Shown: positions 12,307 to 18,781 of the stretch, in pieces
How the letters are laid out: each line of letters opens with the position of its first letter
How positions within the stretch are numbered: the stretch's first letter is position 1
Assembly: GCF_035917975.1 (NCBI RefSeq)
Contig: NZ_CP109130.1
Span: 3,968,001-4,032,000, forward strand
DNA: 64,000 bases
Direction: 5' to 3'
Source: Streptosporangium sp. NBC_01756
GTDB taxonomy: Bacteria > Actinomycetota > Actinomycetes > Streptosporangiales > Streptosporangiaceae
Made by a program: the position numbers and the translations under genes
The notes under the pieces: model-generated
What the model was told of the DNA's origin: nothing
Database searches by the model: none
The model's input: only the letters and a program-made list of their open reading frames with translations

Positions 12307-14811
12307 TCAGTTCTGGATCGGCTCCGCGATGGCGGCGGCCGAGTCCGGGACCTGGTCGGGGCCGGCCTCACCGACGAAGACGAACTTCGCGTCGTCGCCT
12401 TCACCCTCGATGCTGATCTTGACGATCTGACCGGGGCGGAGCTCGCCGTACAGGATCTTCTCCGACAGGGAGTCCTCCAGCTCACGCTGGATCGTGCGGC
12501 GGAGCGGGCGGGCGCCCATCACCGGGTCGTAACCGCGGTCGGCCAGCAGCTGCTTGGCGTCCTGCGTGATCTCCAGACCCATGTCGCGGTCCTTCAGACG
12601 CTCACCGACCTGCGCGAGCATCAGATCCACGATCTTGATGATCTCCTTCGGCGTGAGCTGGTGGAAGACCACGATGTCGTCGACACGGTTGAGGAACTCG
12701 GGCCGGAAGTGCTGCTTGAGCTCCTCCTGGACCTTGGACTTCATCCGGTCGTAGTTCGACTCGGTGTCGTTGGACTTCGCGAACCCGACGCCCTGCCCCT
12801 TGGAGATGTCCCGGGTGCCGAGGTTGGTCGTCATGATGATGACGGTGTTCTTGAAGTCCACCACCCGGCCCTGGGCGTCGGTCAGTCGACCGTCCTCCAG
12901 GATCTGCAGCAGCGAGTTGAAGATGTCCGGGTGAGCCTTCTCGATCTCGTCGAAGAGGACCACGGAGAACGGCTTGCGCCGCACCTTCTCGGTGAGCTGG
13001 CCACCCTCCTCGTATCCGACGTAGCCGGGAGGAGAGCCGAAGAGCCGGGAGACGGTGTGCTTCTCCATGAACTCGGACATGTCCAGCATGATCAGCGCGT
13101 CCTCGTCCCCGAACAGGAACTCGGCCAGCGCCTTGGACAGCTCGGTCTTACCGACACCGGACGGACCGGCGAAGATGAACGAACCACCCGGACGGCGCGG
13201 GTCCTTCAGACCGGCGCGCGTACGGCGGATCGAGCGGGACAGACCCTTGATGGCGTCGTCCTGACCGATGATCCGCTTGTGCAGCTCGTCCTCCATGCGG
13301 AGCAGTCGCTGGGACTCCTCCTCGGTGAGCTTGAAGACCGGGATGCCGGTGGCCGTGGCGAGCACCTCGGCGATGAGCTCCTCGGTGACCTCGGCGACGA
13401 CGTCCATGTCGCCGGCCTTCCACTCCTTCTCACGGCGTTCCCGCTTGAGCTGGAGCTGCTTCTCCTGGTCCCGCAGCGCAGCGGCCTTCTCGAAGTCCTG
13501 CGCGTCGATCGCGGACTCCTTGTCGCGCCGCACATTGGCGATCTTCTCGTCGTACTCGCGGAGGTCCGGCGGCGCGGTCATGCGGCGGATGCGCATACGT
13601 GAGCCGGCCTCGTCGATGAGGTCGATCGCCTTGTCCGGCAGGAACCGGTCGCTGATGTAGCGGTCGGCGAGCTGGGCCGCGGCCACCAGGGCGCCGTCGG
13701 TGATGGAGACCCGGTGGTGCGCCTCGTAACGGTCGCGCAGTCCCTTGAGAATCTCGATCGTGTGGCTGAGGCTGGGCTCGGCCACCTGGATCGGCTGGAA
13801 GCGGCGCTCAAGCGCGGCGTCCTTCTCCAGGTGCTTGCGGTATTCGTCGAGGGTGGTGGCACCGATGGTCTGCAGCTCACCACGGGCCAGCATCGGCTTG
13901 AGGATGCTGGCGGCGTCGATCGCGCCCTCGGCGGCACCCGCGCCGACGAGCGTGTGGAGCTCGTCGATGAACAGGATGATGTCGCCGCGGGTGCGGATCT
14001 CCTTGAGGACCTTCTTCAGGCGCTCCTCGAAGTCACCGCGGTAACGGGAACCCGCCACCAGTGCACCCAGGTCCAGGGTGTAGAGCTGCTTGTCCTTGAG
14101 CGTCTCCGGGACCTCGCCCTTGACGATCTTCTGGGCCAGCCCCTCGACGACGGCGGTCTTGCCGACGCCCGGCTCGCCCACCAGGACCGGGTTGTTCTTG
14201 GTCCTCCGGGAGAGGACCTGCATGACCCGCTCGATCTCTTTCTCACGACCGATGACCGGGTCGAGCTTGCCCTCGCGGGCGGCCTGGGTCAGGTTGCGGC
14301 CGAACTGGTCCAGCACGAGCGAGGTCGACGGCGCGGCCTCCTGCGGCCCGCCCGCGGCGGCCGGCTCCTTGCCCTGGTAACCGTGGAGCAGCTGGATGAC
14401 CTGCTGCCGTACCCGGTTGAGATCGGCGCCCAGCTTCACCAGCACCTGGGCGGCGACGCCCTCGCCCTCACGGATGAGGCCGAGCAGGATGTGCTCGGTG
14501 CCGATGTAGTTGTGACCCAGTTGCAAGGCCTCGCGGAGCGACAGCTCAAGGACCTTCTTCGCGCGCGGGGTGAACGGGATGTGCCCCGACGGCGCAGACT
14601 GTCCCTGGCCGATGATCTCCTCGACCTGCTGACGCACACCTTCAAGACTGATGCCGAGGCTCTCCAGAGCCTTGGCGGCAACGCCTTCACCTTCGTGGAT
14701 GAGACCAAGAAGGATGTGCTCCGTACCGATGTAGTTGTGGTTGAGCATCCGGGCTTCTTCTTGAGCCAGGACGACAACCCGCCGTGCGCGGTCGGTGAAC
14801 CTCTCGAACAT
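12307..14811 (-). CDS. clpC: ATP-dependent Clp protease ATPase subunit ClpC
   Basis: 834 residues from the ATG at 14811 ([11 protein letters not shown]), preceded at eight bases by GAGGAG; the upstream GTG at 14826 lies inside that site. Two N-terminal Clp repeats are followed by the first AAA+ module with Walker [10 protein letters not shown], an M-domain with a UVR-like stretch ([18 protein letters not shown]), the second AAA+ module with GPSGVGKTE, and the C-terminal D2-small domain. It unfolds substrates for ClpP in the cytosol. The gene sits downstream of lsr2 and lysS in the same order as in mycobacteria. Confidence 0.97.
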
Positions 14812-15076
14812 CTCGTCGCTCCTCACAGAGCGGTAAGGCAGGTCCGGGATATCCGGGCCCTGTCATCCCGCATGGTAGCCCCGACCCGGCGACCGCTCTA
14901 TGCAGAAGACGTTCCCCGAGAGCAGGGCGTTCACCCTCCATCCAACTACCTACGGGGGGTGGGATGTTCCCGATACGCCGCAAGCGAACGACGTTTATCG
15001 GCCACCCAAACGCGTCATGCGGTCATGGCCGCCACCGGACCCCACCGTGGCCGCCATAACCGCATGATTCAACGAT

Positions 15077-15409
15077 CTAGTGAGCCGCTTCGTACTGCTC
15101 GACGATCTTGGAGGCGATTCGACCGCGCTCGCTGACATTAAGGCCGTGCGACTTCGCCCATGCCCGGATGTCAGCACTCTTCTCCCGCGTCAGTGCCCGG
15201 GTGCCACCTGCACGGCGACGCCGAGGGGCCAGCGCGCCGGAACGGCGGGCGCTCTGCACGAAAGGCGACAGGGAGTCGCGGAGCTTCTTCGCGTTTACGT
15301 CACTCAGGTCAATCTCATAGCTGGTGCCGTCAATCGCGAAGGCGACAGTCTCATTGGCCTCGCCCCCATCGAGGTCGTCGATGAGAATCTCCTGGATCTG
15401 CTTGGCCAT
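15077..15409 (-). CDS. lsr2: nucleoid-associated protein Lsr2
   Basis: 110 residues. The N-terminal dimerisation domain (IQEILIDDLDGGEANETVAF, then SYEIDLSDVNA) and the C-terminal DNA-binding domain with the AT-hook-like RGRI core (SERGRIASKIVEQY) are typical. AAAGGA precedes the start. Lsr2 bridges DNA and silences AT-rich, often horizontally acquired genes, the actinobacterial counterpart of H-NS. It is encoded upstream of clpC as expected. Confidence 0.97.
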   Translation of the reverse strand: MAKQIQEILIDDLDGGEANETVAFAIDGTSYEIDLSDVNAKKLRDSLSPFVQSARRSGALAPRRRRAGGTRALTREKSADIRAWAKSHGLNVSERGRIASKIVEQYEAAH

Positions 15410-15527: not shown

Positions 15528-15671
15528 TCAACTGTTCTCCGACTCAGCCCGGTCATGCTGTTTTGCCGGGCGGCGACCGGCGGCTTCACTGCGCAGAAGC
15601 TTGACAACTCCGTAGATGAAGGCGCTGCCGACGACCACTGGAGGTATCAACGCGGACAATACGTTGCTCAT
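15528..15671 (-). CDS. 47-residue single-pass membrane protein upstream of lsr2
   Basis: An ATG at 15671 with AGGA five bases upstream opens a 47-codon frame. The product has one membrane helix (NVLSALIPPVVVGSAFIYGV, ~3-22) followed by a positively charged, polar tail (KLLRSEAAGRRPAKQHDR), so the tail should face the cytosol. Codon use is ordinary and the layout (site, helix, basic stop-transfer) supports a real gene. It lies 118 bases upstream of lsr2 in the same direction and might be co-transcribed. I do not recognise a family. Confidence 0.6.
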   Translation of the reverse strand: MSNVLSALIPPVVVGSAFIYGVVKLLRSEAAGRRPAKQHDRAESENS

Positions 15672-16621
15672 TCGTCCTCGCTCCGCACCGGGGATGACTT
15701 TCTGGGAACCATGGATTTTTTGACGACGGCATCCCGGACCGCGCCGGGGCTCGCTGGATCACGACGGATCCACCCACACACGACCATAGCGTCACCGACG
15801 AGCCGTGGGCGTCACTGGGGCGGCCATGCCGGTCGTTCACTACCTTAATGCTTCTCTCCAGCCGTCTTACCGGTTGCGCCGTGTAAAGCCGGGCGGAAAA
15901 AACCGACAGGTCGATCACACGATGATCAACTTTGTCGGAAAACCAATGCCGGTCCGGGTCCCCGGCTCCGAGACCGCCTGCCACCCGCCACGGAATCCCT
16001 GGTGAAAGGGGGTGTCGGCCGAGGCGGAGGGGACCGCCGCGGAGCGGGGGTGCGCCATCACACTCTTCACCAAGGAATGTGCGCCGTGATGAGATGGCCT
16101 GGTTGGCGGGTCGTCGCTTCATCGGGCAGGTGGCCGGCCGTGCAGCGCCGTCGTCGACAAGAAGGCGGGGCTTCATCGCTTTCTTACCAAGAGTACGTCC
16201 GTCTCCGGCATACGGGGCATAGTCGTAGGCCGTATAACCACCAAACGCGCTCAGGTACGTCAACAACCCCGGCAACACCACAGGCTCCGCCCGGCGCGGT
16301 AGAAGGTCGTGCCGTGTCGGCCGGAAGGCGTCGGAGAAGGAGCGGAAGAGAATCCGGCGGAGGCGTCACGGCACCGGCGGTACAGGCGCTTCCACCATCA
16401 TTTGACCGATGGCTCGGGGAACTTCCGACCGCGGCAAGTGACCGCCCATTGGCCACCCATAGGAGACCGCGGTCGACGCCATGACCGACCGGGCGGTGAT
16501 TGTCGGCGCCGGAACGCGACGAGACGACCATAACCTTCCCCCCGGCGGCACGTATGGGTTTTGCACTTCCAACGCGCCGTGGCGGCGTGCCGTTACGGCG
16601 CCCGTTTTCCCACTCATACGT
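15672..16621. other. about 950 bases without a convincing gene
   Basis: Open frames exist on both strands but none combines a ribosome site, normal third-position GC and a plausible protein. The DNA is less GC-rich than its surroundings and contains AT-rich runs near 15890-15905. It may be a decayed gene region or long upstream sequence of the small membrane protein gene. Being AT-richer beside lsr2, it is a natural Lsr2-binding candidate. Confidence 0.4.
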
Positions 16622-16668: not shown

Positions 16669-18024
16669 CTACTTGGTCTTGACCACGACCGTCTTGGCCA
16701 CCTTGTCGTGCAGAGCCTGCTGCAGGGGCTTGTCCCACAGCGGCCACAGCACGTCCACCAGCACGAAAATTCCGAGCAGGTAGGTCAGCAGCGTGAGGAT
16801 GATTCCCAGCAGATTGCTGAACGCGGAGATGAGGTAGAAGCCGAACAGCACGAGGGCGCGCTTGGCGGCGCTCCCCATGTCGAGACCGCCGGCGAGTTGG
16901 CCTCCCACCCGGACGACCCTGATGCCGATGATCTGCTTGCCAAGGCTGGTGCCGTTGCGCGCCAGCATAAGGACTTCGTAGGCGATGAAGGCCAGCGCGA
17001 CGATGACCGTGGCCACGAATCCGCTCATGGCAAGGCTGCCGCTCTTGGTGAAGGTCTCACTGTCGAACGACGGCGCGAACGGCATCGCGGCCAAGAGACC
17101 CACGATGTAGGCCGGGACGCCCACGATCAGCGAGTCCAGAAGACGGGCCACCAGGCGCTGCCACCACTCCGCGAGGGGCGCCGGAACGCCGGGGGGTGTC
17201 ACCCCCTGGGGGGCGTAGCCCTGGCCGTAGGCGGGCTGCTGGCCGTACGGCTGCTGCTGGCCGTAGCCCGGCTGACCGTAGCCCTGCTGGCCGTAGCCCT
17301 GCTGAGGGGGTTGCTGGCCGTAGCCCGGCTGGCCGTAGGGGCCCGTCCCCGGCTGCTGGCCGTAACCCGGCTGCTGGCCGTAGGAGGGCTGCTGGCCGTA
17401 GCCCTGCTGCTGGCCGTAGTCCGGCTGAGCGGACTGCTGGCCGTACGGCTGCTGCTGGCCGTAGCCCGGCTGGGCGGGCTGCTGACCGTAAGGGGACTGC
17501 TCCTGCGACTGCTGGCCGTAGCCCGGCTGACCGTAGGGGGACTGCTCCTGCGACTGCTGCTGGCCGTAGCCCGGCTGACCGTAGGGACCCGTCCCCTGCT
17601 GCTGGCCGTAACCCGGCTGGGCGGGCTGCTGACCGTAGGGGGACTGCTCCTGGGCCGACTGGCCGTAGGCGGGCTGCTGGCCGTAGCCCGGCTGACCGTA
17701 GGGACCCGTCCCCTGCTGCTGGTCGTAACCCGGCTGAGCGGCCTGCTGGCCGTATGGCTGCTGCTGCTGGCCATAGCCCGGCTGACCGTAGGGGGACTGC
17801 TCCTGGGCCTGCTGGCCGTAGCCCTGCTGCTGGCCGTAGCCCGGCTGGGCGTTGCCCGGGCCGGTGTGCGGCTGTGACGCCTCCGCTCGATATCCCACGA
17901 TCGTTACATCGGGGTCCTGTCCGTCATGGTCTCGGCCTGCCTGATGCTGCCCGTACTCCGGCTGTCCCGACGGGGTGCGATCGCGGTCGGGATCATCCTG
18001 GTACGGCGGCTGTCCGGTGCTCAC
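16669..18024 (-). CDS. RDD family membrane protein with long YGQ-rich low-complexity N terminus
   Basis: 451 residues. Residues ~60-275 are built from dozens of irregular units such as [14 protein letters not shown] and QGTGPYGQ, extremely rich in Tyr, Gly, Gln and Pro. The last ~165 residues form an RDD domain: [20 protein letters not shown] begins the first helix, followed by further membrane helices and [18 protein letters not shown] proteins are poorly understood membrane proteins, some linked to ion exchange or stress. The cytosolic tail resembles prion-like, phase-separating sequences of eukaryotes in composition. The DNA under the repeats is itself repetitive, which favours length variation. 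Confidence 0.88.
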
Positions 18025-18148
18025 CGCGTCACCTCACTTCGACTGCGCATGTGCCGTATGTATGTGAGACGCACATGCTTGCTGCAGCACAAGGTATCGA
18101 CATAGTTATCAACAGTCATCTTTCCGATCAACGACCATCAAGACGGTG

Positions 18149-18781
18149 TCAGTGGTGTTCCTGGGTCAGATGAAGCAGCATCCGGGTGTTTCCCAGAGTG
18201 TTCGGCTTGACGTGCTCCAGGTCGAGGAATTCCGCGACACCCTCGTCGTATGAGGCGAGCAGTTCGGCGTAGACCTCCGGCGAGACCGGTGTGCCCTGGA
18301 TCTCCCGGAATCCGTGCCGGGCGAAGAATCCGACCTCGAAAGTGAGGCAGAAGACCCTGCGCAGCCCGAGTTCGCCGGCGGTGCGGAGGAGTTCCGAGAC
18401 GATGAGATTGCCGATGCCCAGCCCTCGGCAGCCGGGGTCGACAGCGACGGTGCGGATCTCCGCGAGATCCTCCCAGAGCACATGGAGCGCCCCGCAGCCC
18501 ACCACGGTGCCCGCCTGCTCGGCGACCCAGAACTCCTGGACGTCCTCGTACAGGGTGACCGTGGCCTTCTCCAGGAGGCGACGGCCGACTCCGCCGTAGG
18601 TGTCGACGAGCCGCCGGATGACGTGGACGTCCCGGGTGCGGGCACGCCGCACCCGGACCGCGGCCGGGTCCGGCCCGGCCTCCCCGCGGTCCCGTCCGGG
18701 GTCCGCGTCTCCGCCTCCCGGCCCGGCGTTCCCGGTGTCGTGTACGGCCGGCGTCGGGGAATGCTCCGCAACCTGCTCCAT
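18149..18781 (-). CDS. argA: amino-acid N-acetyltransferase (actinobacterial ArgA type)
   Basis: 210 residues: ~40 disordered N-terminal residues and then one GNAT domain. The acetyl-CoA loop is EIRTVAVDPGCRGLGIGNLIV, and the end FLDLEHVKPNTLGNTRMLLHL is characteristic of the short stand-alone N-acetylglutamate synthases of actinobacteria (Mycobacterium Rv2747 type). It would start arginine synthesis by acetylating glutamate or glutamine. No other arginine gene is nearby. The start has only a weak ribosome site. Confidence 0.8.
   Translation of the reverse strand: MEQVAEHSPTPAVHDTGNAGPGGGDADPGRDRGEAGPDPAAVRVRRARTRDVHVIRRLVDTYGGVGRRLLEKATVTLYEDVQEFWVAEQAGTVVGCGALHVLWEDLAEIRTVAVDPGCRGLGIGNLIVSELLRTAGELGLRRVFCLTFEVGFFARHGFREIQGTPVSPEVYAELLASYDEGVAEFLDLEHVKPNTLGNTRMLLHLTQEHH

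Follow-up and report, generated by a model that had tools for sequence, protein, structure and literature searches.

The window analysed here is a stretch of 64,000 nucleotides from the genome of Streptosporangium sp. NBC_01756, a single contig of 9.0 Mb that has other Streptosporangium species as its best named relatives. The gene at 16669..18024 (minus strand), termed RDD1, encodes a protein of 451 amino acids from a GTG start that has GAGGTGA ahead of it (18029..18035, minus strand), a likely ribosome-binding site judging from inspection of the sequence. The first-pass annotation described the product as an RDD membrane protein with a low-complexity tail of Tyr, Gly, Gln, and Pro, and this description holds. 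The reading frame is genuine. The upstream neighbor is an amino-acid N-acetyltransferase (18149..18781, minus strand; NF005921, 285.4 bits against a cut-off of 180). The downstream neighbor is Lsr2 (15077..15409, minus strand; PF11774 and PF23359), and farther downstream lies a Clp AAA+ ATPase (12307..14826, minus strand; Clp_N, AAA_2, UVR, and ClpB_D2-small), for which none of the best NCBIfam models scored above its cut-off and which is taken here to be ClpC. This gene order is conserved. In the 30 named loci of the kept orthologs, which together with the window make up locus set A2, the acetyltransferase is present in 30 of 30, Lsr2 in 29, and ClpC in 27, and the loci without Lsr2 or ClpC are all 7.1 kb or shorter.

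At 16093..16362 (minus strand) lies what is left, in decayed form, of a second RDD gene (RDD2). This remnant was identified by tblastn with the RDD2 proteins of relatives (best E 1.6e-15, 40% identity over 87 amino acids); the match spans just part of the RDD domain, and relatives keep RDD2 open at this place. Pfam and NCBIfam searches with the frame that lies over the remnant (15586-16281) gave no match. Of the 49 kept loci, at least 27 contain a second RDD frame; several of these frames carry P/G/Y-rich tails, and others have short or different N-termini. The four other places in the same genome that encode RDD domains are without a YGQ tail, and a search of a plasmid collection gave a single distant match, which lies in an 11.9 Mb record of Nonomuraea.

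The RDD domain of RDD1 contains four membrane helices and spans residues 285-444 (16693..17172, minus strand; PF06271, E 1e-21, 78.1 bits against a gathering score of 24.1). It is the single domain that Pfam finds in the whole protein, and an NCBIfam search at E 0.01 returned nothing. R290, R294, D297, D431, and D440 are invariant in 49/49 orthologs, and the Arg and two Asp residues that are conserved in the RDD family appear to be among them, with the exact assignment being our reading. In the full-length model, residues 1-276 have pLDDT values that are nearly all below 50 and the helices of the RDD part are confident; modeling of the RDD domain by itself gives a mean pLDDT of 95.7. The hydrophobic stretches and the Lys/Arg pattern favor a topology in which the N-terminus and C-terminus are both cytosolic, as Lys and Arg cluster at 290-294, 356-389, and 432-451 and the loop between helices 1 and 2 holds one Lys (327) and two acids. 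RDD1 is a four-helix inner-membrane protein with an N-terminal arm of ~280 residues that is predicted to be disordered and is most likely cytosolic. Among proteins of the family, the RDD protein of Halobacillus andaensis, described as a Na+(Li+,K+)/H+ antiporter, and SppI of B. subtilis, described as an inhibitor of the protease SppA, share with RDD1 a domain with conserved Arg and Asp residues; the account of both that is available in excerpt covers the membrane domain and does not describe a Tyr-rich arm or a Thr motif (PMC7568657).

It is very unlikely that the arm is instead directed toward the cell wall, where it would bind components of the envelope. The charge pattern favors an N-in orientation, and the observation that would speak for a wall-facing arm comes from the mycobacterial RDD protein known as "proline rich antigen" (Pra, MAP_1025), which is bound at an N-terminal epitope (HPGGQQP, residues 28-34) by an antibody that came from work on mycobacterial antigens. 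The same source, in the part available, gives the location of this antigen as the cytoplasmic membrane (PMC6313528). With a listed size of 25.0 kDa, Pra must have a far shorter arm than RDD1.

The YGQ spacer of RDD1 comprises residues 57-282 (17179..17856, minus strand), nearly all of which have pLDDT values below 50. These 226 residues include 75 Gln, 53 Gly, 34 Pro, and 30 Tyr (192/226, 85%), with one Tyr per ~7.5 residues, and the whole protein contains 29 YGQ triplets. Lys and Arg are absent between residues 46 and 290, and the tail is almost uncharged (FCR 0.027). At the DNA level, GC content at the third codon position is 0.907 in the tail and 0.899 in the RDD part, and the synonymous codons for Gly and Pro vary inside the repeat. 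Tandem Repeats Finder reports 15 overlapping rows, the best of which is a 117-base unit present in 1.8 copies with a 90% match. The occurrence of a like-composed tail at the same place in the 49 retained orthologs indicates that the tail is not the product of chance.

The earlier description of this tail as prion-like is borne out in one sense of the term and not in another. Prion domains are expected to contain 30 or more Gln and Asn residues in 80, and proline is unfavorable for amyloid. The best 80-residue window of the tail has just 30 Gln and Asn residues, almost all Gln, and proline makes up 15% of the tail (34/226), so the evidence for an amyloid nature is weak. By composition, the tail is prion-like in the sense of FUS, with no claim to amyloid: its richness in Tyr, Gly, and Gln, its few charges, and its evenly spaced aromatic residues resemble those of eukaryotic low-complexity domains, to which the first reading had likened its composition. 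Tyrosine is named in the accessible text of PMC9748015 as the primary sticker of FUS-type prion-like domains, and such domains have in common with the RDD1 tail Tyr stickers, Gly/Gln spacers, few charges, and even aromatic spacing. In contrast to these domains, the RDD1 tail is membrane-anchored, bacterial, and proline-rich and contains little Ser and almost no Asn. The word RDD is absent from the main text of a survey of bacterial prion-like proteins (PMC4606120), and the portions of the literature consulted on RDD phosphorylation, actinobacterial disorder, and bacterial prion-like or phase-separating membrane proteins contained nothing on the arm.

Comparison did not bear out the view that bacterial membrane proteins rarely carry a tail of this kind. 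N-terminal tails rich in Pro, Gly, Tyr, and Gln are common on RDD rows and were found in Nocardia, Kribbella, Kitasatospora, Streptomyces, Actinomadura, and Amycolatopsis; consequently, the trait is less odd than was first held. Long low-complexity arms are a common and little explained property of actinobacterial RDD proteins. When the tail was used as a query against its own genome, it matched itself and gave two weak matches. One of these (E 0.054) is a sensor-kinase-like protein with S-F-G-Q repeats, and the other (E 0.139) lies on the strand opposite to a P450-like frame and is probably non-coding. The S-F-G-Q repeats of the kinase-like protein (L114, C1:6093534-6093896) are a Phe counterpart of the Tyr tail.

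Evolution of the arm was examined using 128 matched RDD frames, 48 with fewer than five YGQ triplets and 80 with at least five. From the latter, 31 rows were dropped (5 duplicates, 3 with N-runs in the tail, and 23 that do not begin with the pattern G[DE][TA]V...PPY), leaving 49 orthologs. Among the 23 rows dropped for their start, L007 and L015 do carry the Thr motif described below, L019 and L056 are cut by the start of a contig, L025 is a second RDD gene, and the remaining 18 belong to other families and lack the motif. Selection of the 49 orthologs on a conserved start and on five or more YGQ triplets biases this set toward conserved N-termini. In three assemblies of relatives, the YGQ repeat is interrupted by N-runs (L008/L038, L016) or contains the start of the contig (L019/L056), and the tail lengths of these rows are unreliable for this reason.

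The proposal that repeat length varies is borne out across species, as the span from the Thr motif to the RDD domain ranges from 164 to 315 amino acids in the 49 orthologs. Equal spacer length is seen in none of the 36 pairs (which are not independent) that share at least 75% identity in the RDD domain, and in one pair with 96% identical RDD domains the spacers differ by 94 residues. In the close Streptosporangium genomes L023 and L039 (92% identity between the RDD domains), the spacers measure 252 and 270 amino acids and are built of similar units, which makes these two well suited to the study of repeat turnover. The Tyr fraction of the spacer is 0.138 with a standard deviation of 0.009, which by our arithmetic lies under the binomial expectation of ~0.023, and the number of Tyr residues correlates with spacer length (0.94). 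Over the same orthologs, the Gln fraction ranges from 0.18 to 0.46 and the Pro fraction from 0.06 to 0.23, while Lys and Arg together have a mean fraction of 0.006 and Phe and Trp of 0.001. Taken together, these spacer comparisons indicate that tail length turns over fast and that Tyr density is held, such that the RDD1 group separates a held property from drifting ones (length, Gln, and Pro). The aromatic residues are also evenly spaced, with a mean coefficient of variation of the gaps of 0.38 compared to 0.88 for random placement. The gaps are more even than random in 48 of 49 orthologs, in each of which at most 14 of 500 shuffles were as even; the lone exception is L061 (152/500).

These comparisons bear on the rather unlikely explanation that low-complexity sequence expanded here in a largely neutral way, or that the tail is a plain entropic spacer, with a composition that stems from repeat slippage of an ancestral unit. 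The fast change in length, the tandem arrays in the DNA, and the similar tails on many actinobacterial RDD proteins are as such an explanation would have them. Furthermore, even spacing could arise unselected from a tandem unit of ~7 residues with one Tyr, which weighs against the tether explanation given below. A tandem-unit origin does not account for the constancy of Tyr alongside drifting Gln and Pro. Also at odds with neutral expansion are the limits on other residues in each of the 49 orthologs (at most 2.4% Lys and Arg, and at most 0.9% Phe and Trp) the variation of Gly and Pro codons within the repeat of the window, and the maintenance of an open frame.

The first reading of this gene saw the composition of the tail and overlooked the conserved N-terminal 46 residues with their invariant Thr motif, which are the most informative part of RDD1. 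In an alignment (A1) of the 33 distinct N-termini of the 49 orthologs, M1, P6, P7, and Y8 of the starting segment MSTGQPPY (residues 1-8; 18001..18024, minus strand) are invariant in 33/33. A Thr-motif segment follows at residues 37-46 (17887..17916, minus strand), with the core DP[DE]xT[IVR][VIM] at residues 37-43, which reads DPDVTIV in RDD1. Each of the 49 orthologs has exactly one copy of this core, and D37, P38, and T41 are invariant in all 33 distinct N-termini though the segment that precedes them varies in length. The codon of Thr41 (17902..17904, minus strand) is ACG in 28 orthologs, ACA in 10, ACC in 9, and ACT in 2, with no replacement in any of the 49, a count to be read with the fact that the search pattern itself demands Thr. 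Thr41 is thus fixed despite the use of all four Thr codons, and this among orthologs whose RDD domains fall to 39% identity in some pairs. The pLDDT values around Thr41 are below 50, placing the conserved Thr in a predicted exposed, disordered segment.

The distribution of the motif is narrower than that of the tail. Without the start filter, the motif is present in 56 of the 80 RDD rows with at least five YGQ triplets, and the other 24 comprise 18 rows from other families, a single second RDD gene, and five rows whose assemblies are cut or N-filled; none of the 48 RDD frames with fewer than five YGQ triplets has it. The YGQ-tailed RDD rows of Nocardia, Kribbella, Kitasatospora, Streptomyces, Actinomadura, and Amycolatopsis are all without the motif, indicating that tail and motif are separable. 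Among the rows examined, the Thr motif is confined to Streptosporangiaceae. A profile of the N-terminus matched 126 of 297 genomes of this family, in 24 of 68 genera, with one match each; the match in G115 stops at model position 37, before the motif, and the rest reach at least position 44 of 48. Within its own genome, the profile has no match below E 1 besides RDD1. A set of RDD rows (A3) was made from 73 of 88 stretches, the other 15 having been removed by eye because they were nearly identical copies or, in the case of some Amycolatopsis rows, had long ends. A tree of 93 RDD rows, in which the bootstrap had not settled and long branches meet, does not show a single origin of the motif and calls for five changes, three of them forced by starred branches.

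The motif was also considered as a genome-wide signal and rejected as such, since it occurs at five places in the genome, just one of which is in RDD1 (the reversed-pattern control gave 0). The other places are in three frames that were read as folded proteins and in one frame of 95 amino acids. In ten relatives, the DNA pattern of the motif was found at 38 places (reversed control, 0). Thirty of these were examined with their loci; 8 are the RDD1 ortholog and 22 lie elsewhere, and none of the 22 is then followed by YGQ repeats, with L147 located in a repetitive frame of 124 amino acids.

The conserved tip motif points to an arm that works as a flexible tether and not to repeats without meaning. 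It is tentatively proposed, with somewhat less than even confidence, that RDD1 is a cytosolic, membrane-anchored sticker-and-spacer tether that presents a Thr docking motif, which is possibly phosphorylated and read by an FHA domain. The spacer would act as a chain of Tyr stickers and Gly/Gln/Pro spacers. Such a chain would have reach and would associate weakly with itself, bringing copies of RDD1 together at the membrane. Uniform aromatic spacing has been proposed, in the accessible text of PMC7865556, to favor liquid over solid assembly. Near the free end of the arm, the tip motif could serve as the docking site for a cytosolic partner. In the least certain step, Thr41 would be phosphorylated by a Ser/Thr kinase and read by an FHA-domain protein, such that a kinase signal may recruit the FHA protein to RDD1 and tune the activity of the RDD domain, which could be ion exchange or control of a membrane partner. 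The reading of the arm as a tether with a docking site is held more firmly than the phosphorylation step. As YGQ tails without the motif are found on the RDD proteins of other families, the tail and the motif need not act together.

The phospho-Thr/FHA switch is a first guess that follows from the acidic residues, central Thr, and hydrophobic pair of the motif together with the many kinases and FHA proteins of the genome (57 Pkinase matches, two of them below the cut-off, and 8 FHA matches). Excerpts of two reports describe comparable arrangements. In Agrobacterium, Thr14 in the cytosolic N-terminus of the membrane protein TssL is phosphorylated and then bound by Fha (PMC3953482), and in Mycobacterium, FhaA binds phosphorylated CwlM and is recruited by MurJ (PMC6180346). 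Both systems use a phospho-Thr on a membrane or membrane-associated protein to recruit an FHA protein; these proteins are unrelated to RDD1, and the phosphate and FHA partner of RDD1 are putative. Phospho-docking by this motif, if real, would link an RDD protein of unknown role to kinase signaling. A single fixed Thr motif offers a precise residue to mutate.

Alternatively, the motif may be a constitutive docking peptide that acts independently of phosphorylation, for example by adding a strand to the sheet of a partner, with Thr41 kept for packing. This is possible but on balance unlikely. It would account for the conserved hydrophobic [IV][VM] pair beside the Thr and for a misfit to named phosphorylation motifs that also weighs against the phospho-Thr/FHA switch: of the four Thr motifs of M. 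tuberculosis, the three named in the available part of PMC5845002 are E-x-x-pT, pT-x-P, and P-pT, and the Thr41 motif, with Pro at -3, fits none of them. Packing sits less well with a Thr that is kept in 33/33 aligned N-termini and is never Ser or Val, or with a genome in which kinases and FHA proteins are plentiful. The word RDD does not occur in that part of PMC5845002, nor in the main texts of phosphoproteome papers on M. tuberculosis and Streptomyces rimosus.

The spacer could also act chiefly by self-associating into membrane clusters through FUS-like condensation, with the tip motif being secondary, as the first reading suggested for clustering, a view that overlaps with the tether proposed above and is possible but on balance unlikely. 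The 29 YGQ triplets, even Tyr spacing, and near absence of charge are what such clustering would call for, and YGQ tails do exist without the motif. However, the spacer is without Arg to pair with Tyr, and PMC7865556 states that isolated low-complexity domains driven by Tyr-Tyr contacts need much higher concentrations.

The predicted fold of the RDD domain (window positions 16672-17199) has a structural match in Pex2, Pex10, and Pex12, the RING peroxins of the peroxisome, namely in their membrane core. This likeness raises the possibility, regarded as quite unlikely, that the RDD domain is a prokaryotic relative, perhaps an ancestor, of the Pex2/Pex10/Pex12 core, forming a translocon-like module that in Streptosporangiaceae is gathered or switched by the tether. 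If true, RDD1 would be a translocon-like membrane module that is gathered and switched by a disordered, signal-reading tether made of the Tyr-sticker arm and the Thr motif. Unlike RDD1, which has no RING in the Pfam search (PF06271 alone), the peroxins carry a C-terminal RING finger.

Support for this link at the level of sequence is weak and inconsistent. PF04757 matched 6 of 73 RDD rows at E values up to 1 (best 1.9e-4), and in the two of these rows that were examined the matches are below the cut-off and aligned in different registers. No PF04757 match was obtained in ten further RDD2 rows at E 0.1 or in 149 genomes at E 0.01, where the control likewise gave nothing. An RDD row is also matched by an unrelated family, PF08122 (E 1.2e-4), and chance can therefore account for Pfam matches this weak. 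Against PDB sequences, the RDD profile gave four matches at E 10, none of them a peroxin, and the best (a helicase, E 0.012) was taken as chance; phmmer with full-length RDD1 gave none at E 1, and one of the RDD rows that match PF04757 gave none at E 10.

The top three Foldseek matches are the Pex2, Pex10, and Pex12 chains of 7t92 for the full-length and domain models alike, with E values of 0.07-0.18 for the full model and 0.02-0.07 for the domain (probability 0.99-1.00), none of which reaches 0.001. In VIA, where helical bundles below about Z 13 can share just a common arrangement, 7t92_A has Z scores of 10.7 (full model) and 10.5 (domain), and the next entry has 5.0 and 4.5, respectively. 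Chains at Z 8 or above number 3 of 231 for the full model and 3 of 281 for the domain; because each entry is given a single row, these are taken to be the chains of the three peroxins. The domain model aligns with 7t92_A over 143 of 176 residues with an rmsd of 3.7.
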